Origin: a virus | Strand: one strand, 5' to 3' | Virus record (IMG/VR): IMGVR_UViG_3300042451_002160 | Span: 1 to 26,354 of that record | Length of the DNA stretch: 26,354 nucleotides | Part shown: one piece after another, positions 2,198 to 18,838 of the stretch | How the letters are laid out: each line of letters begins with the position of its first letter | How positions within the stretch are numbered: the first letter of the stretch is position 1 | Made by a program: the position numbers and the translations under genes | Notes under the pieces: model-generated | What the model was told of the DNA's origin: nothing | The model's database searches: none | The model's input: the letters and a program-made list of their open reading frames with translations, nothing else

Positions 2198-4141
2198 TTG
2201 AAAATCTCTACGATCCTGGACCATATCGACAATGGTCACATGGCGTTGCCGGAATTTCAGCGCGGCTACGTTTGGAATCGTGACCAAGTGCGAGGTCTAT
2301 TCGATTCGCTTTATAGGCGTCACCCGGTAGGAGGGTTGCTCGTCTGGGCCACTGAAGCCCAGACTGCAACTCACCGCGGTGAGGGTCAGCTCGCGTCCGG
2401 AATCGTGAAGCTGCTTCTCGATGGACAGCAGCGCATGACAACGCTTTACGGAGTTATTCGTGGCCATCCACCTAAATTTTTTGACGGCCAAGCCCAGGCG
2501 TTCACAAGCCTTCAATTCCATCTGGGGTCTGAGACGTTTTCATTCTATCAGCCCATTAAAATGCAAGACGACCCGCTTTGGATTGATGTTACGGATCTGA
2601 TGAAAGCAGGAATGACGGGCTTGGGGACATTCGTCACTCGGCTGTCAGCCCTGCCTCAGCATGCGGCACAGCTGGGTGATTTCGTGGGCCGCTTAAGCAA
2701 GTTATTGAGTATCGCAGACATTGATCTCCATATCGAAGAAGTTACCGGGGCGGATAAGACTCTTGATGTCGTGGTAGACATTTTTAATCGAGTAAATAGT
2801 GGCGGCACTAAGCTTTCGAAGGGCGACTTAGCGTTGGCGAAGATCTGCGCCGAATGGCCGGAGGCTCGCGATACGATGAAAGCGAAGATCAAGGAATGGT
2901 CTGCCGCAGGTTATCAATTTAATCTCGATTGGCTCTTGCGTTCGGTGAATACCATATTGACCGGAGAGGCGAAATTCAGCTTCCTCCACGATAAGGACGC
3001 CGTTGCTATCGAAGATGGACTGAAACGGACCAAGAAGCACATCGATACGGTTTTAAATCTCATTTCTGGGCGATTGGGCCTTGATCATGATCAGGTATTT
3101 TTTGGTCGTTTTGGTGTCCCCGTGATGGTTCGCTACCTCGATCAAAAGACGGGTCCCCTCAACGCTAAAGAGCGCGATAAACTTCTTTTCTGGTATGCCC
3201 AGGCCGGCATGTGGGGGCGCTTTTCTGGATCAACGGAAACAGTAATTGACCAGGACCTCGCGGCTTTGGAAGGAAACGATGGAGGTCTCGACGCTCTCCT
3301 TGAGCAGTTACGCCTCTGGCATGGCGGACTAAAAGTTGAACCTGGGCATTTTACGGGGTGGAGTCTTGGTGCGCGTTTCTATCCCGTTCTTTACATGCTA
3401 ACGCGGATGGGTGGGGCTCGTGATTGGGGTACAGGCCTGCCCCTCAAGGCTACCCTTCTCGGGAAAATGAATCGTTTAGAGGTACATCATATCTTTCCAA
3501 AAGCTCAGCTATACAAATTAAAACATCGACAACCTGATGTGAATGCGCTGGCGAATTTTTGCTTTCTAACTAAGGATACGAACCTGAGCATTAGTGACCG
3601 TAAGCCTGAAAATTACTTTACTGAGATCGAGGAAAATCACCCGGGCGCATTGGCCTCGCAGTGGATCCCTATGGACCCTGCACTTTGGAAAATGGATCGC
3701 TATCTCGATTTTCTCGATGCACGTAAGGCTTTGCTCGCGGAAGAGGCCAACAAGTGTTTCGCTGACCTTTTGCACGGCGAGACCCACTGGGTTGGAGAAT
3801 CTGCGTCAATTTCTGCCGCTCTTCCGGCTGTTATCGGTGGGCCAACAAGCGAAGCAGAGGAACTGCAGATAGATGCATTGAATGAGTGGATTGAAGCGAA
3901 AGGCTTAATGCGAGGTGTTATCGCCTTTGACTGCTCTGATCCGATCACGGGAAATCAACTCGCGGTCATTGACCTTGCTTGGCCCGAAGGTCTGCAGCAG
4001 GGCCTAACAGCGCCTGTCGCCCTGCTGCTAAATGAAGATACAGATGTTCTTGCATTTGCGAGTGCCCGTGGTTTTCGTTGTTTCACCTCTATCGCGGATT
4101 TAAAGGCCTACGTTTCATCCGAAATTCGTCGGCCGGATTAG
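2198..4141 (+). CDS. DUF262 and HNH protein, GmrSD-like type IV restriction enzyme
   Basis: A 647-residue protein starting at TTG 2198. An in-frame stop lies 15 nt upstream and GAGG at 2189-2192 is a plausible ribosome binding site, and the encoded start (MKISTILDHIDNG) matches the usual DUF262 N-terminus. LPEFQRGYVWNRDQV (about residues 17-31) and DGQQR (75-79) mark the DUF262/ParB-like nucleotide-binding domain, corresponding to GmrS. LEVHHIFPK with His430/His431, then NALANFCFLTKDTNLS, form the DUF1524-like HNH nuclease, corresponding to GmrD. Known GmrSD enzymes cleave phage DNA carrying glucosylated hydroxymethylcytosine; that this protein shares the specificity is inference. Residues from about 560 form an extra C-terminal domain (CSDPITGNQLAVIDLAWPEG and onward) that I cannot assign. 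The gene is visibly AT-richer than the downstream operon, suggesting separate acquisition. Confidence 0.88.
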   Translation: MKISTILDHIDNGHMALPEFQRGYVWNRDQVRGLFDSLYRRHPVGGLLVWATEAQTATHRGEGQLASGIVKLLLDGQQRMTTLYGVIRGHPPKFFDGQAQAFTSLQFHLGSETFSFYQPIKMQDDPLWIDVTDLMKAGMTGLGTFVTRLSALPQHAAQLGDFVGRLSKLLSIADIDLHIEEVTGADKTLDVVVDIFNRVNSGGTKLSKGDLALAKICAEWPEARDTMKAKIKEWSAAGYQFNLDWLLRSVNTILTGEAKFSFLHDKDAVAIEDGLKRTKKHIDTVLNLISGRLGLDHDQVFFGRFGVPVMVRYLDQKTGPLNAKERDKLLFWYAQAGMWGRFSGSTETVIDQDLAALEGNDGGLDALLEQLRLWHGGLKVEPGHFTGWSLGARFYPVLYMLTRMGGARDWGTGLPLKATLLGKMNRLEVHHIFPKAQLYKLKHRQPDVNALANFCFLTKDTNLSISDRKPENYFTEIEENHPGALASQWIPMDPALWKMDRYLDFLDARKALLAEEANKCFADLLHGETHWVGESASISAALPAVIGGPTSEAEELQIDALNEWIEAKGLMRGVIAFDCSDPITGNQLAVIDLAWPEGLQQGLTAPVALLLNEDTDVLAFASARGFRCFTSIADLKAYVSSEIRRPD

Positions 4142-4430
4142 TTTTGGCAAGCATCCCAAGGCAGTGCTGCTCAAGCCGGTGGCAAAGGGAATCCCTCGTT
4201 GCCACAATTTGATGGCGCCTCCCTTCAATAACTTGCGTCTACGATGGACCTGACCGGCTGGTCGAATGGTCTGTGTTCCGGGGCTTCACGAGCAAAATGA
4301 GGGGGAAACAGGCCCCAGGGGCCTGGAATCCCCTCCCGCCAGCCGCAGAGAGGGTATAAGGTGGCTGTAACAGGGGCCGGAAACCGTCTCCGTGGCCGCC
4401 AAATTAGAAAATCCGGGTGAACCAAGGCTC
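4142..4430. other. Intergenic region upstream of the DUF499 operon
   Basis: About 290 bp with no supported gene. It holds an exact palindrome at 4309-4325 (CAGGCCCC-A-GGGGCCTG) and a -10-like TATAAG at 4355-4360 without a convincing -35. The promoter of the four-gene defence operon is expected here. An in-frame GTG at 4392 opens the DUF499 frame early, but ATG 4431 is the better start. Confidence 0.45.
4309..4325. repeat. 17-bp palindrome in the operon leader
   Basis: CAGGCCCC and GGGGCCTG flank a single central A. It lies 105 bp before the DUF499 start codon. It is not followed by a T-run, so it is not a standard intrinsic terminator of the DUF262 gene; it could be an operator or a leader RNA hairpin. 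Confidence 0.4.
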
Positions 4431-7400
4431 ATGGCTATCGCAACGATCAAACAGCTCTGCACACCGAATGCTGTCGTCACCGGCGACAGCCTCGTAGAAC
4501 AAGTTGCTCAGATTGACGATCTTGCCAAAGGCAAGATCGATGGCCGTGAATTCTTTCGCCGGAACCATTTTACATCAGGTCTAGAACTGCTCGTGAAGCG
4601 TGGCTTCGATAGGCTCGCGGGTAAGTCGGAAGATGGAGCCTTCTACCTCACCCAAGCGATGGGTGGCGGTAAGACACATAGCCTCATCGCCTTCGGGCTT
4701 TTGGCCTCCGACCCCGCACTCAGGCGAGAAATTGTGCCGCGTATCTCCGCCGGCTCGGAATTTGGCGCCGCCAAGGTGGTCATCTTCAACGGTCACCAGA
4801 ACCCGGAGACCCTGCTCTGGGGCTACATCGCCGAACAGCTTGGTCGGCCTGATGTCATGGCGCCGTTCTGGCGTAGCGGTGCCAAGACACCAGGCGTTGA
4901 TGAATGGGTACAGACCCTTGGCACAGAACCTGTGCTCATCCTTTTGGATGAACTCCCCAGCTACCTCCAAATGGCGCAGGGCGAGCCGGTGGGCGCCTCT
5001 ACCCTTGGCGACCTGACGATCGGCGCCTTAGAGCGGCTGTTCAACGCGCTACCGCAATGCCCGCGTGCCTGTGTGGTTGTTACCAACCTGAAGGACGACG
5101 TGTACCTGGAAGGCTCAGGCCAGCTACGCACGCTGATCGAGAGCCTTACCAAGCACTACGACCGCAATGCCCAGGCCATTACGCCGGTCCAGCAAAATAC
5201 CGGTGAGGTTTTCGCCATCGTCCGCAAGCGCCTTTTTGACGGCTTGCCCAGCGCGGAGCGTATCGACGAAATCGCGCAAGCCTACGTAGCCGCGCTCCAG
5301 AAGGCCAAACGGGTCGACACCATCCCCACCACGCCAGAGACTTTTGTCGAGCGGATCCGCGAAACCTATCCATTCCATCCGTCAATCCGCGACATCGTCG
5401 CTCGCTTTGCCGAGAACCGCGGCTACCAAAAAACCCGGGCGCTCATCCGACTTCTTCGCCTCGCCGTCCGCGGCGCGATGGCGAGCAATGGCAACGCATT
5501 CCTGGTCGGCCTTCAGCACCTCGATTTCAACAACCAAGCCACCATTGAGGAAATACGGAAGATCAATCCGGCCTATGGCAATGCCATCTCGCGCGATGTC
5601 TCCGATCGCGGCAACGCCCTCGCGGAGAAGATCGACGCAATTGATGGCAATGCCACCGCTTCCAGTGTGGCCAAGCAGTTGCTGATGTCCTCGCTCTCCA
5701 ACGCTGAGTCCCCCCTGCGCGGCCTAACGGACGGCGAGCTGATCGAGACCCTGGTTGATCCATTACTCGAAGTCTCCGAGATCAAGACAGCGCTCAGCCG
5801 CATCCAGGGCCAGGCCTGGTACCTGTTCCAAAGTATCGATCAGCGCGTGTTCTTTGGTCAGACGGCCAACGTCACTGCCGAGATCACCGAGATCGCGGCC
5901 AATATCGCCGAGGAACAGGTTGACCAGACCCTGCGCGAAAAGCTGCGCGAGGTCTTCAAGCCGCGGAACGGCGCGCTCTATTCCGACAAGATGGCGATCC
6001 TGCCAGCGTTGGATGAAATCCAACTCGACGATGAACGCCCAACCTTGGTGATCCTGGAACGGCCCGCTGACAAGCTGCCGCAGGACTTCGTTGATTGGTG
6101 GAACAAGCAGGACCTGCAGAACCGCGTCCTTGTCCTCACCGCCGACCCCAACGCCGTCACCACCCTTCGGCTTAGTGCGCGACGGATGCGGGCGATCGGC
6201 AAGGTGGAGGAGCGCATCAAGGCGCAGCACGGCCAGGGTTCGCCGCAGATGACCGAACTTGATACTGTGCGCGACCGTGAAGCGGCCAATTTCACCAGTG
6301 CGCTCCGTGAGACTTTCAAGACCATCATGTTTCCAATGACGAAGGCGCTTCGCCGCGTGGACGATTTCCGCATGGAGTTCGACCGCAACGACTATTCCGG
6401 TGAGCAGCAGATCATCGACACGCTGACCAAGCGCGGCAAGTTCATCCCGAGTGATCAGTTCGACAGCAGGTTTGAGAACATCCGCCTTGATGCCGAGGAA
6501 ATGCTGTTTGATGCGGACGCAGTTCAGGCATCGTCCTTGCGTCGGAATGCTGCCGTGCGCTCAGGTTGGTTCTGGCTGCCTAAGGGTGGGCTGGAACAAT
6601 TGGTCCGCACCGCCGTGCAACGCGGCTTCTGGCGCGAAAAGGAAGGCCTGGTCGCCAAAAAGTGGGAACGCCTGACAAAGGTCACCGCCCGGCAGGATGA
6701 TTTCGCTTCGGACCCGATGATCACTGGCCGCTTCCAGATCAACGTGACCCCCGAGGATGCTGACATCGTCTATGTGTCTGAGAGCGGACCGCCCGACCCA
6801 ACAAAGGCGGCCAAGCTCGATGGGCGCGTCTATGAAACGGCGGCGCCGGCAGTCTGGTTCCTGGGCGTTGATTCCAAGGGCGTGGCGAAAACTGGCAATG
6901 CTTATGAGTGGCGCGCGACGCTGCGCGTGAAGCCAGATGTACGGCGCTTGGCTACCGGCTATCGCGTGGCGCTCCTGGCCATCCCGCGTGCCGCGACGAT
7001 CCGCGCGACTTTTGACGATACCGACCCCCGGACAGGACCGGAGGTCCAACACGGCGAGATTGCTGCGCCGCCTGATGCCCGCAAGCTGCGCGTCATTGCG
7101 GAACTGAATGGCCAGTTCAGCCAGGAGGAAACGGCCCCACTGGCAACCGGCATGGATGACGGCCCCTTCAACCCAGGCAGACCTAAGTTGAAGCCTGATG
7201 CGCCTGTCACTATGATCTCCAAGTTCGAGCCGAAGGACACCGCGGCAGCTTTCTCCGCGCTCGACCGCTTGGCGAAGCTGCCGGACGCAAAGGTACTGGG
7301 CGGCACCATCGACTTGAACGGCATGCGGTCTGAGGCGGATTTCCTCACGCTCCGCCTGGGGCGTGATGTGCCTGTGCCTGCAGCGGCACTCGATCAAAAG

Positions 7401-7550
7401 GTGAAGGATTTGCTCGCCTTGCTCTCCGCCGATGCACCAACGGTCAAGCTGCGCCTCGACGGTATTGCCTTTCCGTCTGGACGGGACCTTATGGCTTTCT
7501 GCGACGCGGCAGGTGAGGATTTCGACCGCGTTGTCTGGAACCAGGACTGA
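4431..7550 (+). CDS. DUF499 P-loop ATPase of an anti-phage operon
   Basis: A 1039-residue protein. ATG 4431 is preferred because the conserved-looking start MAIATIKQLCTPNAVV begins here and AAGG precedes it closely; GTG 4392 would add 13 residues. MGGGKTH (Walker A, GGGKT at residues 78-82) and VLILLDELPSY (Walker B, Asp174/Glu175) show an active P-loop NTPase. The rest fits DUF499 proteins, which from memory include BrxC/PglY-type ATPases of BREX and ATPases of other methyltransferase-linked phage defence operons. The last 110 or so residues look like a separate small domain. The stop is 5 nt before the DUF3780 start, so the two are co-transcribed. It probably powers or gates the methyltransferase/nuclease complex; that role is inference. 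It is the first gene of the operon and is complete. Confidence 0.9.
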   Translation: MAIATIKQLCTPNAVVTGDSLVEQVAQIDDLAKGKIDGREFFRRNHFTSGLELLVKRGFDRLAGKSEDGAFYLTQAMGGGKTHSLIAFGLLASDPALRREIVPRISAGSEFGAAKVVIFNGHQNPETLLWGYIAEQLGRPDVMAPFWRSGAKTPGVDEWVQTLGTEPVLILLDELPSYLQMAQGEPVGASTLGDLTIGALERLFNALPQCPRACVVVTNLKDDVYLEGSGQLRTLIESLTKHYDRNAQAITPVQQNTGEVFAIVRKRLFDGLPSAERIDEIAQAYVAALQKAKRVDTIPTTPETFVERIRETYPFHPSIRDIVARFAENRGYQKTRALIRLLRLAVRGAMASNGNAFLVGLQHLDFNNQATIEEIRKINPAYGNAISRDVSDRGNALAEKIDAIDGNATASSVAKQLLMSSLSNAESPLRGLTDGELIETLVDPLLEVSEIKTALSRIQGQAWYLFQSIDQRVFFGQTANVTAEITEIAANIAEEQVDQTLREKLREVFKPRNGALYSDKMAILPALDEIQLDDERPTLVILERPADKLPQDFVDWWNKQDLQNRVLVLTADPNAVTTLRLSARRMRAIGKVEERIKAQHGQGSPQMTELDTVRDREAANFTSALRETFKTIMFPMTKALRRVDDFRMEFDRNDYSGEQQIIDTLTKRGKFIPSDQFDSRFENIRLDAEEMLFDADAVQASSLRRNAAVRSGWFWLPKGGLEQLVRTAVQRGFWREKEGLVAKKWERLTKVTARQDDFASDPMITGRFQINVTPEDADIVYVSESGPPDPTKAAKLDGRVYETAAPAVWFLGVDSKGVAKTGNAYEWRATLRVKPDVRRLATGYRVALLAIPRAATIRATFDDTDPRTGPEVQHGEIAAPPDARKLRVIAELNGQFSQEETAPLATGMDDGPFNPGRPKLKPDAPVTMISKFEPKDTAAAFSALDRLAKLPDAKVLGGTIDLNGMRSEADFLTLRLGRDVPVPAAALDQKVKDLLALLSADAPTVKLRLDGIAFPSGRDLMAFCDAAGEDFDRVVWNQD

Positions 7551-7555
7551 CGACC

Positions 7556-8227
7556 ATGGCCCTAGGCCCCGCCACACCCGCGCCCGCCAGCTTCGACTGC
7601 GCCGATATCTATCAGGAGCACGGCTTTCTCGTGCGGCTGACCAAGGGCCGCGACGCCAAGGTGCAGGTGTTTGAGGTGTTCGGGCGCCCGCCGACGGAAC
7701 GCGAGCCACAATGGGCGCCCGAGACCATCATGCGCTGCGAGGCCGCGCGCGAGGTGTGGGATGTTGTTTCCCCCGAAGCGCGCGCCGAGTTCAACCGGCG
7801 CCTGAAGGCGGAGAACCGTCCGTCGGGGCGCTGGGGTGCAGATGAAACCGCCGTGCAGCGCCTGTTCGGCAAGGAATTGCTGGTGCTGCTTTGGGCCATA
7901 GAATTGGCAGATGTGAAGCCGGAGGAAGTTGGCGTGGCGATCCGCAACTGGCTGGGGCTGAAGCCGGAGGAGCGCTGGTGGCTCTACACCATGACTGCGG
8001 CTGGGACCGGGCTGGCGCACCAAGCGGGGATGGGCTGGCGCGGTGCGCTACGCCAGGCGTTGTGCTTCGGCACCCGCCACGATGCCTTCCACCTGGGGGC
8101 GGTGACCGGCCGCGGCACGCTGGAACCCCGGGTAAATGCCCAATACGTTCAGCCGAAGCGTAAGCCGGGCCGCAAGAAGGCTGATGATCCCGGTTTCCTG
8201 TTCGCCCCGGCGCTGCCAGCTGAATGA
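7556..8227 (+). CDS. DUF3780 protein of the anti-phage operon
   Basis: A 223-residue protein with no known enzymatic motif. The family is recognised from the central and C-terminal block: EFNRRLKAENRPSGRW (about residues 80-95), then LFGKELLVLLWAIE, IRNWLGLKPEERWWLYTMTA and GWRGALRQAL. This block is typical of DUF3780 proteins, which occur with DUF499 ATPases and DUF1156 methyltransferases. The C-terminus is basic (KRKPGRKK), which could contact nucleic acid. It starts 5 nt after the DUF499 stop and ends in an ATGA overlap with the DUF1156 start, so translation of the three is likely coupled. Its biochemical role is unknown; an adaptor between ATPase and methyltransferase is a guess from gene order. 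Confidence 0.88.
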   Translation: MALGPATPAPASFDCADIYQEHGFLVRLTKGRDAKVQVFEVFGRPPTEREPQWAPETIMRCEAAREVWDVVSPEARAEFNRRLKAENRPSGRWGADETAVQRLFGKELLVLLWAIELADVKPEEVGVAIRNWLGLKPEERWWLYTMTAAGTGLAHQAGMGWRGALRQALCFGTRHDAFHLGAVTGRGTLEPRVNAQYVQPKRKPGRKKADDPGFLFAPALPAE

Positions 8228-11202
8228 CGGAGAGTTCTGTGAGTTCTGCTGCTCTTCCTGAGACGGCCCCCGGCCTTGCGCCGTTTTCCTTGAAAGATGC
8301 TCCGGCCTTCATCGAGCGGCAGTTCCCGGTCGGACGCATTTCGGCGGAGGCCTACAAAGAGCGCACTGCTGTGCAAGGCCAGCTTCTCACAACCCTGGGA
8401 ACCTACTGGAAGGGACGAAAGCCACTCATTCTAGTGCGCGCTGCCGTACTCGGCTGCCTTTTGCCCGCGACAGAGGACCCCGCAAGCGATCTCGATGTCT
8501 TCCTCAAGCTCATGGCAATGGACGACGCTGCATTCGGACGACGATTCGATCGTAGCGCTGCAGAGTTTGACCGGCTGTTCCCTTATCAGGCAGGGCAGCT
8601 CACGGAGGCGCGCGGCAAGCGCGTGGGTTGGCGCGAAGGTATATCCAACGCAGACCGGGCGCGCCGCATCGCGGAGTGTTTCGCCACACTACCCTATGCC
8701 GAAAGGCTGAAGCATGTTCGGCGGCCCGAGGAATGCAACGAGACTGACTTGTTGGCGCCCATCTGGCCGTCGGTGAACCGCCATTTGGGCACACGCGCCA
8801 CCAGCATGGCACAGTTGGTCGATCAACTTGGTTTTGCACGCTTTGGACAGCGCCCCCGCCTCGCCGATACATTCTGCGGCGGGGGATCGATCCCGTTCGA
8901 GGCGGCGCGAATGGGTTGCGATGTATATGCCTCCGACCTCAATCCAATTGCCGCGATGCTCACATGGGGCGCGTTTAACATCATTGGCGCCAGTGAAGAT
9001 CTACGTGGAGAAATTGAGGTAGCGCAGAGGCGCTTGGCTGCGGCGGTCGATGCTAAGATCCAGCAGCTTCGGATCGAGCACGACACCGAAAGCAATCGCG
9101 CCAAGGCCTATCTTTATTGCTTGGAGACGCGCTGCCCCCGAACTGGCTGGATGGTGCCGATGGCGCCCTCCTGGATTATTTCCAAGACGCGCAATGTGGT
9201 AGCGAAGCTGGTGCCGGACCACACGGCCAAGCGCTATACGATCGAGATTGAGAGTGGCGCGGATGCAGCCACGATGGCGCAAGCCGAGCAGGGTACGGTG
9301 CAGGGTGGGCGCCTGATCCATCCGATGAATCCGGAGCGCTCCGGCGTGGATATCAAGACTATTCGCGGGGACTACCGTGATGCGGACGGCACGTCTCGAA
9401 ACCGACTACGCCTGTGGGAGAAACAAGATTTTATTCCGCTGCCAGACGATATCTTTCAAGAACGTCTCTACTGCATCCAGTGGATAACTAAAGAAACGTT
9501 GGGCAAGGGCCGCCAGGAGACATTTTTTCGGGCGATTTTGCCTGAGGATGAGGCACGCGAGCGACATGTCGAGGCTATAGTACGCGAGAAGATTATCGCT
9601 TGGCAGAATGCAGGCTTAATGCCTGACATGGCAATCGAGCCGGGTGACAATACCACTCAGCCTATCCGTGAGCGTGGTTGGACGCACTGGCATCATCTTT
9701 TCTGCGCCAGAAATTTGCTTTTCTATTCGATGCTACTCGAAGAAATCAAAAATGAATCTCCTCAGCAGCAGGCGACACTATTGATTTGTTTTGCCAAAAC
9801 ACTCGATTGGGGAAATAAGCTCTGCTATTATGGAACAGGAGCCGCGCGCGAATCCATTAGTCATTTGTTTTCGAATCAAGCCTTCAATACGTTTCTAAAC
9901 TATGGCGTCCGCGGTACGTCGGGTCTTTTGGAGCACATAAATTTAGATTTTGGATTAGTTCAAGAAGTTCCAGGTTCGAGAACTGTGTCCGCCCATTCAG
10001 CAAGAGATATTTGGTGCGATGTCGATATATTTATAACCGATCCTCCTTATGCGGACGCCATAAATTATCATGAAATAACTGAATTTTTTATTGCCTGGAT
10101 AAGAAAAATTGCTCCACTGCCATTCCATGATTGGATATGGGACTCTCGTCGTAATTCAGCGATCAAAGGTAAGGACGAGCAGTTCCGTCGAGACATGGTT
10201 ACCGCGTACGCTGCCATGACAAGAAAGCTCCCTGAGAATGGGCAGCAGGTCGTGATGTTTACTCATCAGGACGCAGGGGTGTGGGCTGATCTTGGCAGTA
10301 TTCTTTGGGCCGCTGGACTTCGAGTGACCGCAGCTTGGAACGTGGTGACTGAAACGCCTAAGCCGGATGGACTTGGGAACTATGTCCAGGGCACGGTCTG
10401 CCTCGTCCTTCGCAAGCGCCAGGGCGCAACCAATGCACGCCGCATGGAGATTGAGGCAGAAATCGAGGAAGCAGTTGTAGCGCAACTCGCCCACCTCAAC
10501 GCCCTGGATGATGCTTGGCATGAGCGCACTAATGCCGAAACGCTCTACACCGATGGCGACCTGACCCTCGCCGCCTATGCCGCCGCGCTGCAGGTCGTCA
10601 CCGCCTATTCCAGCATTGATCGCCAACCGCTCGACCGCGACCTCTACCGCAAGCTAGGCAAGGGCGAGACCACCATGCTGCGCGACCTGGTGGACTATGC
10701 CGCTCAGGTGGCGAACAGCTTGCTGGTGCCGGAAGGTTTCCCCCGCGACATGTGGCGGGACCTGCTGGCTGCCGAGCGCTTCTATGTCCGCATGCTGGAT
10801 ATGGAAGCGAAGGGCTCCGCCAAGGTGGCCGATTTCCAGAATTTCGCGAAGAGCTTTGCCTTTGGCGGCTATGCCGATCTGATGGCCTCCACCACCGCGA
10901 ACGCCGCATCGCTTGCTGGTGCCGCCGATTTCAAAGGCCGCATGCTGGAAGGCGAGGGCTTTGGTGGCACGCAGCTTCGTCAAGTACTCTTCGCCATCTG
11001 GAAGACCATGGAAGGGCGGGAACTTGACCCCAAACGCGGTGTCACGCTGCTGAAATCCGAATACAGTGCCGACTACTGGCAGCGACGCCAGAAGCTGATC
11101 TCGCTCGCTGGCTACATTGCCATGAAGACCGCACGTACTCGCCCTGAAGAAAACGCGGCCGCGCATGAACTGGCCGAGGCGCTGAAGCTCGATAGGGTCT
11201 AG
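8224..11202 (+). CDS. DUF1156 adenine-type DNA methyltransferase
   Basis: A 992-residue protein. The N-terminus has the DUF1156 pattern FPVGRISAEAYKERTA followed by LTTLGTYWKGRKPLILVRA. DTFCGGGSIPFEAARMG (residues 215-231) is the SAM-binding motif I region and DPPY (606-609) is the amino-methyltransferase catalytic motif, so N6-adenine (less likely N4-cytosine) methylation of DNA is predicted. The presumed job is to mark host DNA as self while the operon's nuclease/helicase acts on unmarked phage DNA. The ATG overlaps the DUF3780 stop by 4 nt. Bases about 9420-10150, which include DPPY, are strikingly AT-rich compared with the rest of the gene, while the frame stays open; this suggests internal recombination. 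The C-terminal about 250 residues are helical-looking and unassigned, and may hold interaction surfaces. Confidence 0.92.
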   Translation: MTESSVSSAALPETAPGLAPFSLKDAPAFIERQFPVGRISAEAYKERTAVQGQLLTTLGTYWKGRKPLILVRAAVLGCLLPATEDPASDLDVFLKLMAMDDAAFGRRFDRSAAEFDRLFPYQAGQLTEARGKRVGWREGISNADRARRIAECFATLPYAERLKHVRRPEECNETDLLAPIWPSVNRHLGTRATSMAQLVDQLGFARFGQRPRLADTFCGGGSIPFEAARMGCDVYASDLNPIAAMLTWGAFNIIGASEDLRGEIEVAQRRLAAAVDAKIQQLRIEHDTESNRAKAYLYCLETRCPRTGWMVPMAPSWIISKTRNVVAKLVPDHTAKRYTIEIESGADAATMAQAEQGTVQGGRLIHPMNPERSGVDIKTIRGDYRDADGTSRNRLRLWEKQDFIPLPDDIFQERLYCIQWITKETLGKGRQETFFRAILPEDEARERHVEAIVREKIIAWQNAGLMPDMAIEPGDNTTQPIRERGWTHWHHLFCARNLLFYSMLLEEIKNESPQQQATLLICFAKTLDWGNKLCYYGTGAARESISHLFSNQAFNTFLNYGVRGTSGLLEHINLDFGLVQEVPGSRTVSAHSARDIWCDVDIFITDPPYADAINYHEITEFFIAWIRKIAPLPFHDWIWDSRRNSAIKGKDEQFRRDMVTAYAAMTRKLPENGQQVVMFTHQDAGVWADLGSILWAAGLRVTAAWNVVTETPKPDGLGNYVQGTVCLVLRKRQGATNARRMEIEAEIEEAVVAQLAHLNALDDAWHERTNAETLYTDGDLTLAAYAAALQVVTAYSSIDRQPLDRDLYRKLGKGETTMLRDLVDYAAQVANSLLVPEGFPRDMWRDLLAAERFYVRMLDMEAKGSAKVADFQNFAKSFAFGGYADLMASTTANAASLAGAADFKGRMLEGEGFGGTQLRQVLFAIWKTMEGRELDPKRGVTLLKSEYSADYWQRRQKLISLAGYIAMKTARTRPEENAAAHELAEALKLDRV
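9420..10150. other. AT-rich internal segment of the methyltransferase gene
   Basis: Counting by eye, 10021-10140 has 43 G+C of 120 bases and 9781-9840 has 23 of 60, whereas 10561-10620 in the same gene has 39 of 60. The change is gradual on the left and abrupt on the right near 10150. The reading frame is uninterrupted and the catalytic DPPY lies inside, so this is a coding block of different base composition, not an insertion. Confidence 0.7.
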
Positions 11203-11221
11203 CGCTTATGGGCACGGTGGC

Positions 11222-13966
11222 ATGATCGAACGCTTTTCCTCCCGCCGTGAAGCGCTGGGCCCCGTCCTGACTGCACGCCTTACTGGCGCAACGCACTACC
11301 TCCGCATTGCCGGCTATTTCCGATCTTCCCTGCTTGATGTGGTGGGTGAGGCACTGGAAACAGTCGGTGAGATCAGGGTGATCTGCAACGGGGACCTCGA
11401 CCCGCATGACGTAAAGGTGGCGAAGGCTGCTCGCGACGGCCAGGCGGCGTTGGCGCGCACGCTGGTGTCCTCCTGGCAGGCAACGGAAGACGGGTTGGAT
11501 GTGCTGCTGGCCCGCGAACGCTATCGGCGGCTGCATGGCCTGCTGGCCTCCGGCCGGATGAAGGTGCGGGTCGTGCCGCGGGACGCCAATAATGTCTTCG
11601 TGCACGGTAAAGCTGGCGTGATCGAACATGGCGACGGGCGGGTCTATTCCTTCGTCGGCAGCGTGAATGATTCCGCCTCCGGCTTCCGACATGCCTACGA
11701 GATTCTTTGGGGCGACGAAGATCCGATTGCCGCGACCTGGGTGCGCGAGGAGTTCGAGCATTTCTGGCAGCAGGGCGTGGATCTGCCCGATGCAGTGGTG
11801 AAGCACGTCGCCGCCATGGCGGGCCGGATCGAATATCGCTCGATCGAAGCGGCACGTGATGCGGGCGGCGATGTTGCTACCGATGCTATCTTGGCCGAGC
11901 GCCCAATCTACAAGGGTGGCCAGATTTTGCGGTCCTGGCAGAAGCGCTTCGTACAAAGCTGCGTCGAAGATCGCAGGCTGCATGGCAGTGCGCGCTACCT
12001 CATCGCGGATGATGTCGGCCTCGGCAAGACGCTCTCCATGGCGGCGGCTGCGCTGGTGCTGTCGATGTTGGACGATAAGCCAGTGCTGATCCTGGCCCCA
12101 GCAACGCTGATCTGGCAGTGGCAGGAGGAATTGGAAGATAAGCTCGGCGTGCCAGCGGCGGTGTGGTCAACGCAGAAGAAGTGCTGGCTGGATGGCGAAC
12201 GACGCCCACTGACGCAAAAGGGCGATCCGACGTTGGTGGCGAAGTGTCCCTGGCGCATCGGGATCATGTCCACCGGGCTGATCGTCAATGGCGATGATGC
12301 AGGTGAGCGCGGGGCGCTGGCAAAGAAATCTTTTGGCGTGGTCATCCTTGATGAGGCGCACAAGGCGCGCGCCTCTCGCGGCCAGAACGGACGCGGTGCG
12401 GCGGAACCTAACCAGCTGCTGCGGTTCCTGCGTGGCGCCGCAGGCAAGGCTACCAACGTGATCATTGGCACTGCAACGCCGATCCAGCTCGACGCGGTGG
12501 AACTTTGGGATTTGATGCATGCGCTTGGCCAGGGGGCGCCGCATGTCCTTGGTACGCCCTTTGATGGCGGCGAGTGGATGCGCGAGGAATCGATCCGTTA
12601 CCTGACCGGCGCCAAGGCCTGGCCGATGAATGATACGAACCGTTGGGGCCTGTTTCGTAACCCGCTTCCCCCAGCTGCCGAGCACTCGGTGTTCCGCGAT
12701 GTTCGTAATGATGCCGGCCTCCTCCCACGCGAAGTACTGGGGCCACGGTTCGATGATCTTAGTTCAGATACCCGCACCGATTTCCTGAACGACTTCCAGG
12801 GGCTCGCCGAACGGAACAACCCAATCGTGCGTCGGGTTGTTCGGCGCACCAGGCCAATGCTCGAAGCGCGTGGGCTGCTGAAGCGCATTGGTGTGCTGAC
12901 GCACCCAAAGCCGGATGACGGTCTGCCAACATCGCTATTCAGCGGTGAAGGGCTGGAGATGAGTATTGCCTTCAAGGCCGCCTATGAAGCAGCGGAGGAA
13001 TTCAGTCGTCTTTACGCGCAACGCTTCCCCGGAGCCGGGTTTCTAAAGACCATCCTCCTGCGCCGTATCGGGTCTTCTGCGCGCGCGGGGCTGGAGACGG
13101 CGCGGCATCTGCTGGGCCGGCTCGAGGGGCCGCCCGTTTCTGAAGATGAGGCGAGTGATGAAGGATTTCCCGATGTAGTCCTTCCACCCGAGCCCCAGGA
13201 GATCCAATACCTGCGGGAGGTGGAGCGGAACCTAGCCGCCGTCGTGGCAGGCAGTGATACGGATCCGAAGGTTCAGGTGGTTTTGCATTATCTGCGGGAA
13301 CGCCGCTGGCTTGAAACAAATGGCGCCATAATCTTCAGCCAGTATCGGACGACGGCGGAGTGGGTCCTGGAGGCCCTCTGCGCGGCGTTTCCGGACGAGC
13401 CGGTGGCCCTCTACGCCGGCGGCGCAGCTTCCTTCGTGCAACGCGGCCAGGACCGCCGCACGGCTGCCCGCGAGCAGATCAAGCGACGTATTCAGGATGG
13501 AGAAATCAGGCTGGTCTGCGCCACGGATGCTGCCTGCGAGGGCCTGAACCTTCAGCGTCTTGGGGCGCAGGTGAACATCGATTTGCCGTGGAACCCGTCG
13601 CGGCTGGAGCAGCGGAAGGGGCGCGTGCAGCGCATCGGTCAAGCGCGGGACGACATTCACGTGCTGAACCTGCGCTATGCCGGCACAGTGGAGGATCAAG
13701 TCTACGCGGCGCTGTCTCAGCGCTTCGGCGATATCTTCTCGGTCCTTGGGCAACTTCCAGATGCTTTTGAGGATGACTGGATCTCGGCCGCTCTCAATGA
13801 TCGCACGGCACTTCAGAATTTCTCACAACGGGTAGAATTGGCAAAGCCGCCAATGGAACTGCGTTATTCTCTGGACATCGCCGATGATCAGGGCCTTGAC
13901 TGGGAGTATACGGAGAATGTGCTCTCCTCCCGCGATATCGACGAATGGATGCGGCAGGGATGGTGA
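11222..13966 (+). CDS. PLD-like nuclease fused to SNF2-family helicase
   Basis: A 914-residue protein. The N-terminal about 200 residues are phospholipase-D-like: VHGK with His128 and Lys130, then GSVND at 146-150, the core of one HKD motif. Glu135 replaces the usual Asp. A single HKD motif would require a dimer for catalysis, as in BfiI-type enzymes. Residues from about 240 form a SNF2/superfamily II motor: Walker A DVGLGKT (264-270), DEAH (377-380), GTATP, IIFSQYRTTAEW, and the motif V/VI region with LEQRKGRVQRIGQ. The protein probably translocates along invading DNA and cuts it. It starts 19 nt after the methyltransferase stop and is the last gene of the tight four-gene cluster. Its domain order resembles DISARM's separate helicase and PLD proteins joined into one chain; that parallel is inference. 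Confidence 0.92.
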   Translation: MIERFSSRREALGPVLTARLTGATHYLRIAGYFRSSLLDVVGEALETVGEIRVICNGDLDPHDVKVAKAARDGQAALARTLVSSWQATEDGLDVLLARERYRRLHGLLASGRMKVRVVPRDANNVFVHGKAGVIEHGDGRVYSFVGSVNDSASGFRHAYEILWGDEDPIAATWVREEFEHFWQQGVDLPDAVVKHVAAMAGRIEYRSIEAARDAGGDVATDAILAERPIYKGGQILRSWQKRFVQSCVEDRRLHGSARYLIADDVGLGKTLSMAAAALVLSMLDDKPVLILAPATLIWQWQEELEDKLGVPAAVWSTQKKCWLDGERRPLTQKGDPTLVAKCPWRIGIMSTGLIVNGDDAGERGALAKKSFGVVILDEAHKARASRGQNGRGAAEPNQLLRFLRGAAGKATNVIIGTATPIQLDAVELWDLMHALGQGAPHVLGTPFDGGEWMREESIRYLTGAKAWPMNDTNRWGLFRNPLPPAAEHSVFRDVRNDAGLLPREVLGPRFDDLSSDTRTDFLNDFQGLAERNNPIVRRVVRRTRPMLEARGLLKRIGVLTHPKPDDGLPTSLFSGEGLEMSIAFKAAYEAAEEFSRLYAQRFPGAGFLKTILLRRIGSSARAGLETARHLLGRLEGPPVSEDEASDEGFPDVVLPPEPQEIQYLREVERNLAAVVAGSDTDPKVQVVLHYLRERRWLETNGAIIFSQYRTTAEWVLEALCAAFPDEPVALYAGGAASFVQRGQDRRTAAREQIKRRIQDGEIRLVCATDAACEGLNLQRLGAQVNIDLPWNPSRLEQRKGRVQRIGQARDDIHVLNLRYAGTVEDQVYAALSQRFGDIFSVLGQLPDAFEDDWISAALNDRTALQNFSQRVELAKPPMELRYSLDIADDQGLDWEYTENVLSSRDIDEWMRQGW

Positions 13967-14015: not shown

Positions 14016-14495
14016 ATGATGCCGCATATCCATGTGCTCGACATGATGCGCCGGACAATGGTCAACTTGGAGTTCGTTGAACGCCATTCTGCTAGGAACG
14101 GCCCCTTCGAGGTCACCCAACTCATAAACTCATATCTCGCTGCCCTGGTGCATCCATGGGAAGAACTGATGGCAGACCTGCCGAACACCACGCTTTCGGT
14201 AGCTCGAGCCGCCGGGTGGCCTATCCCTGAGAAGCAAGGCGGTAGTAGTCCTCCCCCAGAAACACTCGGTGATATATTTCGCTTGCTTCGTAATGGGGTC
14301 GCCCATGGCAACCTAACCTTGCTGTCCGATGGGCGCGGCCAGATTCACGCAATCCGCATCGAAAACTACAATCGAAACCAACTGACTTGGCGCGGAGTAA
14401 TCACCGTTGCGGAAATGCGAATACTCCTGCATCGGTTTGTGGCGCTGGTGGAGGAAATCGACCACGAGGCGCGCCAGCCAAAACGCTCAGCTTAG
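14016..14495 (+). CDS. HEPN-domain protein, probable RNase (pEK499_p136-like)
   Basis: A 159-residue protein. ATG 14016 is immediately followed by a second ATG; either could be used and neither has a strong ribosome binding site. LLRNGVAHGNL contains Arg92 and His97, the R-x4-H active-site motif of HEPN ribonucleases, in the RNG-AHGN context I associate with the pEK499_p136 HEPN family. The helical N-terminus with FEVTQLINSYLAAL and a second helix LLHRFVALVEEI fit the HEPN fold. HEPN proteins act as RNases in abortive infection, toxin-antitoxin and CRISPR effectors. No antitoxin gene such as an MNT nucleotidyltransferase adjoins it. It follows the helicase by 49 bp on the same strand and may be the RNA-targeting arm of the preceding system, or an independent gene. 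Confidence 0.65.
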   Translation: MMPHIHVLDMMRRTMVNLEFVERHSARNGPFEVTQLINSYLAALVHPWEELMADLPNTTLSVARAAGWPIPEKQGGSSPPPETLGDIFRLLRNGVAHGNLTLLSDGRGQIHAIRIENYNRNQLTWRGVITVAEMRILLHRFVALVEEIDHEARQPKRSA

Positions 14496-15172
14496 GTTTT
14501 GCGCTACTTTTTTAGGCAGTTGAAAATGCACCGGTAGCTTGTATTTCTCTTTTCGCTTTTGCTGGCCCCCATATCTCAGGCGAGTTTGCTGCTAGCCACG
14601 CCACATTTTCGCCACACAAAAACCAATCCTTTCCAGTAACTTACAACCTCCGTACTAAATCAGCCAAGTCTACAGGTTAGGAGAGAACTGGCCCTCGAAG
14701 CGCAATTTTTGGGCTTTTCCCGGCTTGGCCGGTCAATAGGTTCGCCCCAAAAACCCCAAGACTCCTGCCAAAGATAGGGCCGATCGGGCCGGCGGAGAGA
14801 GCGGATCATTTTGAAACTGGCGGAGGGAAAAGTGAGGTGCTGGAGACGAAGTCTCTGAGTAGAGAGTAGCCAAGCCCTTGATAGGACTGCGGAAACTGGC
14901 GTTTAAGCTCGTTACTAGAAACTACGCTCCTTCCCGCCGGACAGAGACTGCAGCAGCTGCCAGACGCTCTGGTCACAAACGATTTCAGCGATCTAGAAGG
15001 AGTCGAAAGGCCGTCGTGCGTGACAAATTCGCAGTGGCGCCGACGTCGGTCTGCCGCTACACTGACGCCGCTCAATAAGCTTGCTCTGAAATTTCGCAAT
15101 CATTGTGGGAAATCAGAAACAAAGCAAGGCGGATGCAGAGTGAACTCAGTCGCTCGGGACAAGTTGGGAACC
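14496..15172. other. Intergenic region between HEPN gene and the AAA/S8 operon
   Basis: About 680 bp. Short open frames on both strands show no recognisable domain. The DNA holds a nested stem structure at 14706-14753 (listed separately), CCGATCGG at 14780-14787 and a small GAGAC-GAA-GTCTC hairpin near 14843-14855. The promoter of the AAA/S8 pair is expected here, but no confident promoter was found. The frame of the AAA gene stays open back to a GTG at 15020, but those upstream residues do not look conserved. Confidence 0.5.
14706..14753. repeat. Nested inverted repeats in the intergenic region
   Basis: Outer arms TTTTTGGG (14706-14713) and CCCAAAAA (14746-14753) enclose an inner hairpin, CCGGC (14720-14724), TTG loop, GCCGG (14728-14732). 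The arrangement could fold as a two-level RNA or DNA cruciform. Part of it (14704-14723) resembles the sequence at 1088-1106 on the other side of the central defence operon. Confidence 0.45.
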
Positions 15173-16159
15173 ATGACGACCGCTAGGCACATCATTGCCC
15201 TGCTCAAGAGCCACATTGCGGGCGACGAGGATAGGTTCCTCGCCACCGCTATGCAGCTTGCCGCGCATGAAGCCCGGCAAGGGCACGGGAAGATTGCGGC
15301 CGAACTCCGCGATCTCATCGATGCCACGAAGTCGAAAGATGCTGCGATCGGGCGGAAGGTCGCGCCTGTTCCGATGGCGCAGCCAAAAGGTGAGCTCGCG
15401 GCTCTCTTAGCTGTTCGCTACCCCGATCTCCGATTTTCCGAAATGGTCCTTTCAGAGACAATCTCATCTCGCTTACAACGCGTGCTGCTTGAACAACGGC
15501 AGCAGGAAAATCTTCGCTCGCACGGATTGCGCCCGCGCAGAAAGCTTCTGCTCATTGGTCCTCCCGGCGCTGGCAAGACGATGACCGCGGCGTCGATGGC
15601 TGGCGAACTTAAGCTTCCCCTATTCACCGTGGTCCTCGACGGATTGATCACGAAATTCATGGGCGATACTGCTGGGAAACTCCGCCTTGTATTCGATGCG
15701 ATGAATGCGACGCGAGGTATCTATTTCTTTGACGAGTTTGATGCGATTGGCGCAAAGCGTGCCGAACGTAATGATGTGGGCGAGATTCGACGGGTACTGA
15801 ATTCGTTTCTACAATTCCTCGAGCAAGATGACAGTCAAGGGCTGATCATCGCAGCAACCAATCACCCCGAGCTTCTCGATAAGGCACTCTTCCGCCGCTT
15901 CGATGACGTGGTCGAGTATGAGTTGCCAGATGCAGTTCTGGTTCAGCGAATACTCAAGGCGCGACTGACGGCATTCGACACCAGAGGCCTTGCTTGGGAC
16001 GAGGCGGCCGAGGCCGCAGTGGGCCTGAGCCCGGCAGAAGTCGTTCGTTCAGCTGAGAACGCAGCGAAATCAGTGGTTCTTGCTGGAAGAAAGCGCGTTA
16101 CGTTGGCCGAATTGAAGGATGCGATTGCGGAGCGGCGGGAGGCAACACTCTCAAGCTAA
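15173..16159 (+). CDS. ietA: AAA+ ATPase of an ietAS-type defence pair
   Basis: A 328-residue protein. ATG 15173 is chosen because MTTARHIIALLKSHIAGDE is where the family-like N-terminus starts; the in-frame GTG at 15020 would add 51 basic, low-complexity residues. GPPGAGKT (129-136, Walker A), FFDEFDAIG with Asp187/Glu188 (Walker B), AATNHPELLD (sensor 1) and FRRFD (arginine-finger region) define a classical AAA ATPase of the FtsH/spastin type without a membrane segment. The N-terminal about 80 residues are helical and probably bind substrate or partner. The S8 protease gene begins 12 nt after the stop. An AAA ATPase followed by a subtilisin-like protease is the ietA-ietS arrangement, first described as a plasmid-stabilising toxin-antitoxin pair in Agrobacterium and later reported as anti-phage. 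The ATPase is thought to restrain or feed the protease. Confidence 0.85.
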   Translation: MTTARHIIALLKSHIAGDEDRFLATAMQLAAHEARQGHGKIAAELRDLIDATKSKDAAIGRKVAPVPMAQPKGELAALLAVRYPDLRFSEMVLSETISSRLQRVLLEQRQQENLRSHGLRPRRKLLLIGPPGAGKTMTAASMAGELKLPLFTVVLDGLITKFMGDTAGKLRLVFDAMNATRGIYFFDEFDAIGAKRAERNDVGEIRRVLNSFLQFLEQDDSQGLIIAATNHPELLDKALFRRFDDVVEYELPDAVLVQRILKARLTAFDTRGLAWDEAAEAAVGLSPAEVVRSAENAAKSVVLAGRKRVTLAELKDAIAERREATLSS

Positions 16160-16171
16160 GCTGAACCCAAC

Positions 16172-18652
16172 ATGAATGATTTGCCCCGCAATCGACCGCA
16201 TCTATTCATAGATGGTGGCGGTCAAACCGAACAATACCGACGCCCCGCGCAAGCTATCCGCAGGCCACCGCTGCCGGGCAGAGATCGTGCGGCCCACGCG
16301 GACGCGTTATCTGCTTCAATTGGTGTCGCGCTCGAAGCAGCCCGCGCCCAACTCGCAGCAAGGGCGACCGCCGTGGCGGAGGGTGTACCGGGTTTCTATT
16401 TGCAAATAGAATTTCCTGCTGCAGAGAAAGCGGTAATCGATCAACTCGGTAACAGACAAAAGCAGATTGAGGTAGTGGCCGTTCGCGAGCCGACCGCGGA
16501 AAGCCCCTCAGTAACCGCCGCTGTTTTCGTGCCGGCCTCGGCCGAGACGTACTACCAAGAAAAGGTAGAAGCCTATCGGACGCAGGAAACGCGAACGGGC
16601 CACCCAAAAAATGAACTTCTCATTGCGCGGATGGAGGTTGTTCGTTTGGCGACGGCAAGATCGCTGTTCACGGACGACGACGCACTCTTTCCTATCGACG
16701 ATGGTGCTGTATGGTGGGAAATCTGGCTTCGAGGCGGACATCGGGATGTCTTTTCGCGAATGGCCACGCGATTGAACCTCCAAGTGAAGGACCACGCCGT
16801 TCGCTTTCCTGAGCGCGAGGTTGTTCTCGCCCTCGCAAATACCGAATCCATCAATCGTTTGGTAGCATACAGCGACGTGGTGGCAGAGCTTCGGCGTGCG
16901 AAGGATACTCCCGCCTTCTTTATGGGGCTTGGCGGCGGCGAACAGCGTGAATGGAGCGCGGAGGCTCTCGCCCGCGTTACGCCGCCTGCGGATGCAAATG
17001 TCGCTGTCTGCATTCTTGATAGCGGTGTCACGCATGTTCACCCTCTTCTGTCACCTGCACTCGACGTTGCAGATCTCCATACGATCAATCCTGCCTGGGG
17101 AACCGCAGACTCGGCCGAGCAATGGCGGGGCCACGGGACGGCCATGGCCGGGACCGTGCTTTACGGAGATTTGGTTCCGGCTCTAACCGGCAGCGGCCCC
17201 ATTGTTCTCACGCACCGGCTGGAAAGCGTGAAAATCTTGCCGCCGAATGGCGTGGCCGACAATGAGCCGGACCTCTACGGCGCGATCACCGCTGAAGCGA
17301 TTGCACGCGCCGAAATCAAGGCACCGCACCGCAGAAGGGCAATTGCGCTTGCGGTGACGAGCGAAAACGCGATGCGCGGGAAGCCGTCCTCGTGGTCGGC
17401 TGCCATCGATCAGCTTTGCTTTGATCCCGACAATCCTCGGTTGCTCATCGTTTCGACAGGCAACATCCGTGTTGACTTAATGCCAGCCGATCATTTAGCT
17501 CGGAACGATTTGGAATCTATCGAGGACCCTGCACATGCCTGGAATGTCCTCACCGTGGGAGCGTTCACGGAAAAAACCGATGTCATCGATCCGGCTTTGG
17601 CGGGATGGTCCGCGATAGCACCGGCAGGGGAGTTATCGCCTCGCAGTCGAACATCGGTGACGTGGGAGCGCCAGTGGCCTATCAAGCCTGATGTGGTCAT
17701 CGAGGGCGGGAACCTTGCGTCAAACGGAGTGCTTCCAGGCGAGCCGGTTGACGAGTTGCAATTGTTGACTACGCACAATAGACTTACATATCGCGTTTTC
17801 AACACCATCGGGGACTCCAGCGCAGCAACCGCCCTTGTGGCAAGGCTTGCCGGTGCGATCTTGGCGACACGACCAAGGCTTTGGCCTGAAACGGTTAGAG
17901 GCCTGATCGTTCATTCCGCCGAATGGACTCCAGCGATGCGTGCTCGCGTCGATGCATGCAACGGGAGGAAAGGTCAGATTCACGCCCTTGTACGACGTTA
18001 TGGATTCGGCGTTCCCGACTTGGGCCGGGCACTTTTTTCCGCGCAGAACGATTTGACTTTGATGGTGGAAGACTCTCTCACGCCATTCAGCAAGGTGGGC
18101 AGCGCTTCCGTAAAGACACGAGATATGAAGGTGCATCAGTTGCCCTGGCCGAATGATGTTCTCGCTCAGCTCGGAGAAGCCCACGTCGAACTTCGCGTCA
18201 CGCTATCGTATTTCATCGAGCCGAATCCAGGCGAGCGCGGCTGGACCCGCCGCCACCGTTATGCGTCACATGGTCTTCGGTTCGCTGTGAAAAAAGCAAC
18301 CGAGTCGCTCGACGATTTTCGGGCTCGCGTCAATGACGCCGCGAGAGACGAGGAAGAGGGCGAGACTATGGGAGGCGGCGCTGGAGGTGATGAGTGGCTT
18401 CTTGGTCCGAAGTACCGCAATCAAGGTTCGCTTCATTCGGACTTCTGGTCCGGTACGGCGTCCGATCTTGCCCAACGCGACGCGATAGGCGTTTTCCCCG
18501 TTGGCGGCTGGTGGAAAGAGAAATCTTACCTCGAGAAATGGGATACCGAAGCCCGATATGCCTTGATCGTCACGATCAAAGCTCCTGGCGTTGAAGTTGA
18601 TATCTACACGCCAGTGGAAGCTAAGGTCGCGATTGCTGCGGAGATCGTGTGA
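16172..18652 (+). CDS. ietS: Subtilisin-like S8 protease of an ietAS-type defence pair
   Basis: An 826-residue protein without a signal peptide, so probably cytoplasmic. The catalytic triad of family S8 is complete: Asp283 in CILDSGVTHVHPLL, His321 in WRGHGTAMAG and Ser549 in GDSSAATALVARLAG; STGN supplies the oxyanion Asn. About 270 residues precede the protease domain and may be an inhibitory or sensing region; about 230 residues follow it and are unassigned. The gene is the second of a two-gene operon with the AAA ATPase. In the known ietAS systems the protease is the toxic component and the ATPase the antitoxin-like partner; its substrates are not known. The start ATG 16172 has no strong ribosome binding site, consistent with coupling to the upstream gene. 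It is the last + strand gene before the prophage block. Confidence 0.87.
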   Translation: MNDLPRNRPHLFIDGGGQTEQYRRPAQAIRRPPLPGRDRAAHADALSASIGVALEAARAQLAARATAVAEGVPGFYLQIEFPAAEKAVIDQLGNRQKQIEVVAVREPTAESPSVTAAVFVPASAETYYQEKVEAYRTQETRTGHPKNELLIARMEVVRLATARSLFTDDDALFPIDDGAVWWEIWLRGGHRDVFSRMATRLNLQVKDHAVRFPEREVVLALANTESINRLVAYSDVVAELRRAKDTPAFFMGLGGGEQREWSAEALARVTPPADANVAVCILDSGVTHVHPLLSPALDVADLHTINPAWGTADSAEQWRGHGTAMAGTVLYGDLVPALTGSGPIVLTHRLESVKILPPNGVADNEPDLYGAITAEAIARAEIKAPHRRRAIALAVTSENAMRGKPSSWSAAIDQLCFDPDNPRLLIVSTGNIRVDLMPADHLARNDLESIEDPAHAWNVLTVGAFTEKTDVIDPALAGWSAIAPAGELSPRSRTSVTWERQWPIKPDVVIEGGNLASNGVLPGEPVDELQLLTTHNRLTYRVFNTIGDSSAATALVARLAGAILATRPRLWPETVRGLIVHSAEWTPAMRARVDACNGRKGQIHALVRRYGFGVPDLGRALFSAQNDLTLMVEDSLTPFSKVGSASVKTRDMKVHQLPWPNDVLAQLGEAHVELRVTLSYFIEPNPGERGWTRRHRYASHGLRFAVKKATESLDDFRARVNDAARDEEEGETMGGGAGGDEWLLGPKYRNQGSLHSDFWSGTASDLAQRDAIGVFPVGGWWKEKSYLEKWDTEARYALIVTIKAPGVEVDIYTPVEAKVAIAAEIV

Positions 18653-18838
18653 CGCCAGAAAAAGCGTGAATCTTGTGGTTGCTTCGCCCTGTCCGGCGTC
18701 AGCGCCTATGGACCAAATTGGCGAATTGAGTAACGGAGGAATCCTGGATCATCGTAGCCCTAAAGTCAGCGAGGATAAGCCAGCCTACTCAATTGAAGTA
18801 TCATGGCGCGACCGGCTGTCCCGGCTGATGGCGGTATC
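18653..18838. other. Convergent junction between defence island and phage tail module
   Basis: A gap of 186 bp between the protease gene on + and the tailspike gene on -. It holds a 9-bp perfect inverted repeat (AATTGAGTA at 18724-18732, TACTCAATT at 18786-18794) and a CCGGCTG direct repeat near 18817-18832. No T-rich intrinsic terminator, att core or tRNA is visible, although transcription must end here from both sides. Confidence 0.5.

Follow-up and report, generated by a model that had tools for sequence, protein, structure and literature searches.

A divergent Type-2 BREX-related defense operon with a hypervariable methyltransferase stretch that looks like a swappable target-recognition segment

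The operon and its relation to named defense systems

A DUF499-centered Type-2 of the BREX-related (BR) defense systems, present in 1120 taxa, was defined in a January 2026 NAR paper (PMC12839542). It consists of a DUF499 ATPase, a standalone DUF3780 protein, a DUF1156 N6-adenine methyltransferase (MTase), and an HKD-helicase, in which an HKD nuclease replaces the N-terminal TUDOR of the SNF2 helicase (PMC12839542). Its DUF499 proteins are characterized by a C-terminal RRM, accompanied by FnIII in roughly half of them. NCBIfam holds four dedicated "antiphage" families for this gene set (NF042961-NF042964), and PADLOC models all four proteins as well. No experimental paper on the Type-2 BR subtype was found in the literature searched. 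For BREX, PglX/BrxX has been established as the specificity factor for methylation and defense, and engineered changes shift both together (PMC11341690, PMC11842806).

The window, i.e. the whole stretch of 26,354 nt analyzed here, carries four genes of this kind, all on the + strand and separated by 5, -4, and 19 nt according to the ORF calls. The first encodes a BrxC-like DUF499 AAA+ ATPase, starting at 4392 (GTG) or 4431 (in-frame ATG) and ending at 7550 (PF04465; NF042962, 786 bits; PADLOC DUF499, 673 bits). It is followed by the genes for a DUF3780 protein of 223 residues (7556..8227; PF12635, E 6.8e-45; NF042961), a DUF1156 MTase of 992 residues (8224..11202; PF06634; NF042963, 1281 bits), and a PLD (HKD) nuclease fused to an SNF2-type helicase, 914 residues long (11222..13966; NF042964, 1062 bits). 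With NCBIfam E-values of 5.5e-236, 9.3e-45, 0, and 0, the matches of the operon proteins go far beyond chance. In the proposed effector, the PLD-SNF2 protein, PF13091 (PLDc_2) was located at residues 17-182, ahead of SNF2-rel_dom and Helicase_C, and the profile search gave no match to a TUDOR domain. The catalytic motifs are intact in the window and are kept across 28 loci: Walker A (QAMGGGKTHSL) and Walker B (LLDEL) of DUF499, motif I (214-227) and TDPPYAD (605-611) of the MTase, and HxK...GSxN of the PLD domain together with Walker A, DEAH, and motif VI of the helicase. HxK and GSxN are both present in the window, and the canonical Asp position of the PLD motif is a Glu there and is variable in the family. 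A promoter and terminator scan of the window gave nothing above chance. The gene set, its positions and spacing, and the intact motifs, which an earlier note had read from the letters, were thus confirmed by ORF calls, profile searches, and comparison of the 28 loci.

The earlier note had counted a match to a named system as grounds for rejecting its reading, and as far as the name goes such a match exists: the operon is a Type-2 BR defense system, to which the window adds a further member, and the view of an unnamed system was not supported. All Type-2 BR features that were tested were found, namely DUF499, standalone DUF3780, DUF1156 N6-MTase, and HKD-SNF2, with DUF499 assigned to Type-2 by its best profile match. 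The window has in common with the published set the four genes, their order, the HKD domain at the helicase N terminus, the standalone DUF3780, and the lack of PglZ, but it belongs to a divergent alphaproteobacterial clade. A run of PADLOC matched all four proteins to its models of the set. The window is regarded as a divergent member because only the MTase clears its NCBIfam equivalog cut-off (1281/1000 bits), whereas DUF499 (786/1200), DUF3780 (153/200), and the helicase (1062/1100) fall below theirs.

Comparison with other systems gave a consistent placement. Hma (Type-1 BR) has a homologous ATPase, MTase, and SNF2 helicase, but it lacks DUF3780 and HKD, both of which are present in the window. 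It comprises three genes with a C-terminal REase on the helicase, an arrangement that the window does not fit, and its PADLOC models scored far lower than those of the present set (ATPase, 160 versus 673 bits; MTase, 66 versus 1169 bits). BREX of Types 1 and 3 has a related AAA+ ATPase and N6-MTase, Type 3 an SNF2 helicase too, and in BREX as in the window the MTase is the likely specificity factor. In contrast to BREX, the window is without PglZ, BrxA, BrxB, and BrxL, and the PLD nuclease is the probable effector instead. Profile searches detected no PglZ, DUF1998, or BrxL family match among the predicted window proteins scanned, in agreement with the earlier reading, and no BrxL or other BREX core gene among the neighboring ORFs scanned, which places the operon outside BREX. 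It is likewise outside DISARM, as DrmB (DUF1998) had no match in the window. DrmD models matched nothing but the helicase domain, at 133 bits against 913 for PLD_Helicase (PADLOC). Of the likeness to BREX and DISARM proposed earlier, the relation to BREX therefore stood, whereas that to DISARM shrank to a common SNF2 helicase superfamily.

The four genes follow one another in this order in at least 19 IMG/VR contigs, in some of them with an insert between genes, and the order is kept on plasmids of Halomonas, Pseudomonas, and Acinetobacter and in alphaproteobacterial and cyanobacterial genomes; further plasmids carry the set too, the first genes of which were seen there. Among 5426 complete E. 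coli genomes, 17 carry the set as well, with copies that are at least 99% alike. The claim that it recurs as a conserved BREX-related defense operon was thus upheld. E. coli UMNK88 has a locus with all four genes in unchanged order, but there DUF3780 is fused to DUF4357 and a restriction endonuclease gene comes after. DUF3780 was found in only 2 of 398 Pseudomonadota genomes in a wide sample. A search for PglZ beyond the window (PF08665) again agreed with its absence from the operon, since six of seven related records or genomes lacked it and the seventh carried it on another contig. In DUF499, DUF3780, and the helicase, the closest relatives share 88-96% identity with the window, but in the MTase only ~74%.

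The hypervariable MTase segment and a proposed mechanism

To this published system type the present work adds a segment of the MTase with strictly local hypervariability and sharing across lineages. The proteins of 19 locus pairs with a helicase identity of at least 88% were scanned in 50-residue windows. The lowest mean identity over these pairs was 85% for DUF499, 89% for DUF3780, and 84% for the helicase, but 27% for the MTase (at 501-550). Residues 500-604 of the MTase, encoded at 9721..10035 on the + strand, averaged ~27% over the 19 close pairs. Conserved stretches flank them, RGWxHWHHLF...R496..L499 before and TDPPYAD after, so that they sit just ahead of the DPPY motif. In all pairs of eight close loci, residues 500-598 were 16-30% identical regardless of relatedness elsewhere, and the same pattern was seen in several separate clades (28 loci). 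For L007 and L008, identity was 99% in the helicase, 99% in DUF499, 98% in DUF3780, and 27% in MTase residues 500-598; the corresponding values were 99, 99, 97, and 22% for L006/L011, 98, 96, 99, and 34% for L033/L034, and 98, 96, 93, and 31% for L023/L026. At the DNA level, identity drops only across the MTase gene, where it falls at the start, is down to ~40-55% over the segment, and rises again in the last third.

Segments of one type were also found far apart. The segment of L006 was 51% identical to that of E. coli and 55% to that of L023, yet 22% to that of its sister L011, and the E. coli and L023 segments were 71% identical. Those of L019 and L028 were 77% alike, whereas L019 and L026 reached only 32% despite being closer elsewhere (helicase, 96%). 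Such recurrence of segment types across lineages is a mosaic of the sort that target-recognition domains usually show, and the stretch of 105 residues looks like a swappable target-recognition segment. The E. coli loci, tried as another check on segment swapping, were uninformative, all 17 being at least 99% identical. MTase residues 30-499 vary as well (~62-81% in close pairs), and given this variation the recognition unit may be wider than 500-604. In the published description, a target-recognition insert was placed after MTase strand 2, and a role in recognition was given to the C-terminal RRM of DUF499 (PMC12839542). The segment, if correctly read, narrows the recognition region relative to that insert. 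The AF2 model of the MTase had a pLDDT of 77.6, with values in the segment mostly below 80 and down to 35, and a Foldseek search of the model against the PDB returned nothing with E <0.001.

We propose, with a probability of about 0.7, that the Type-2 BR operon works as a multi-subunit restriction-modification system in which the MTase segment sets the target. The MTase would recognize a short DNA motif via the swappable segment and methylate the adenine in that motif on the host chromosome, giving a self mark. When the motif on incoming DNA is unmethylated, the MTase, together with the DUF499 ATPase and DUF3780, would license the PLD-SNF2 protein, which would then move along the incoming DNA and cut it. 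A single subunit, the MTase, would thereby provide the specificity for protection and attack alike, and, like PglX in BREX, it probably determines what is targeted in either case. If the protected motif varies but the ATPase, DUF3780, and nuclease-helicase hardly do, these three can scarcely be its readers, and the MTase would have to serve attack specificity too. By inference, the segment would be in contact with DNA, methylated sites would be spared from restriction, and the PLD domain would be what cuts DNA. Knowledge of the families suggests the steps after recognition, in which the PLD-SNF2 protein would translocate and cut and in which DUF499 and DUF3780 would act as assembly or licensing factors. 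The lack of PglZ had been taken to mean a mechanism different from that of BREX; this appears right for the effector, the PLD nuclease, whereas target recognition is probably as in BREX.

The same comparisons bear on two other explanations. The invader might instead be recognized by DUF499, through its alpha+beta domain, wHTH units, and C-terminal RRM, with the MTase marking self only, as argued from the domains and from the variability of the RRM across the family (PMC12839542). Here too, the C-terminal part of DUF499 ranks with its less conserved regions, but mean identity in the windows of this part is still 85-91% for the 19 close pairs, and DUF499 is 95-99% identical between closest relatives whose MTase segments differ entirely. 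A constant DUF499 sensor combined with a changing protected motif would attack self or miss its target, and we consider recognition by DUF499 unlikely. Secondly, the segment might change fast because it evades phage inhibitors and not because it recognizes DNA. The TRD/CTD surface of BrxX is a binding site for Ocr-like proteins (PMC11842806), and pieces of this BR system are present in phages. However, the identity of the segment falls to ~20-35%, its borders are sharp, and one and the same type nevertheless reappears in distant lineages; inhibitors as the driving force are judged quite improbable.

Genomic setting of the operon

The window stems from an IMG/VR record and has tail genes at its right end. 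The operon is nevertheless unlikely to be phage-borne cargo, as phage homology stops within ~50 bp of 18,838. Beyond this border, relatives carry different DNA, and L074, which is 99% identical over the phage part, ends exactly after IetS at 18,653. From the end of phage homology and the break in L074, the island with the operon was therefore treated as host DNA, which probably lies beside the prophage end. A prophage of the same tail family also ends at another defense island (L086:13700-21575; GmrSD-like, SNF2 helicase, DPPF methyltransferase).

The window is a stacked defense island. Upstream of the operon, 2198-4141 encode a GmrSD-like protein (DUF262 plus HHIFPK motif; PADLOC HEC-05), and 15020-18652 hold the defense pair IetA (AAA ATPase) and IetS (subtilase), the latter very divergent (36/900 bits with the NCBIfam model). 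Between the operon and this pair lies the scar of a tRNA-Ser integration site (14649..14826), a 176-bp block common to L006, L007, L008, L011, and L128. In L006, L008, and L011 the block abuts the tRNA-Ser 3' end downstream of the sister operons, while the tRNA side is missing in the window. Because the block is the flank beside tRNA-Ser in these sister loci, the operon and the HEPN gene next to it seem to be part of a tRNA-Ser-anchored island, with IetAS as a separate block. A serine-recombinase-like gene was observed upstream of sister operons (L006:4315-5715, L008:3111-4460), with which they may travel.

The HEPN gene (14016..14495, + strand; pEK499_p136 type, PF18736, E 1.7e-13, RxxxxH present) starts 49 nt after the operon and has a 71% identical counterpart at the same place in L008; its product is a possible auxiliary RNase. 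HEPN proteins have been reported among auxiliary effectors (PMC12839542), so that the operon might act by abortive infection with this neighbor as effector and without true DNA restriction. In a similarity search, however, HEPN was absent beside other close relatives, whereas the PLD-helicase is always present with its motifs intact. We regard abortive infection as very improbable and retain restriction by the PLD-SNF2 protein as the preferred reading.

DUF3780 tails and lone phage copies

The AF2 model of DUF3780 showed a confident core (~20-170) and a disordered C-terminal tail (175-223). The fold had no Foldseek match with E <0.001, and the best VIA-align Z was 5.0 over 67 residues. The tails of full systems terminate in short peptides, among them SLDLFGD, TLPLFQ, TLSLFE, QSLFSGK, and SQLSLNL, whereas the tail of the window, GFLFAPALPAE, is a weak example of the motif. 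Of 25 representative tails, 9 matched a Q-based pattern, where shuffling would give 1.1, and 19 matched a looser one, where it would give 2.8, both patterns having been written after the tails were seen. These LxLF- or QLxLxL-like peptides resemble DnaN-binding peptides. It is conceivable, though rather unlikely, that the tail (xLxLF or SQLxLxL) tethers the complex to the sliding clamp, so that newly replicated DNA is checked, and that tail-less lone DUF3780 proteins of phages occupy the complex untethered and so counter the system. The clamp is not mentioned in PMC12839542.

Lone, tail-less DUF3780 genes were observed in phage contigs at L027:9962-10414, L038:9983-10453, L040:8555-9028, and L041:2784-3455. 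Their neighbors are a terminase (L027), a Sak4-like gene and an exonuclease (L038), or an exonuclease (L040, L041), and no DUF1156 was found on these four records. Proteus phage Pm34 (L002:9344-10432) has only two small ORFs of the system, gp4 and gp5, for a piece of the DUF499 C terminus and for a DUF3780 that lacks the tail. The lone phage proteins are possible counter-defense proteins, and their genes offer concrete candidates for such a function. Both they and the DUF3780 tail are weaker leads than the swappable segment.

Type-2 BR systems are widespread and known mainly from computation. Specificity placed in 105 residues of one subunit would make their mechanism testable by one swap, and it would allow motifs to be predicted from the methylomes of strains that have already been long-read sequenced.
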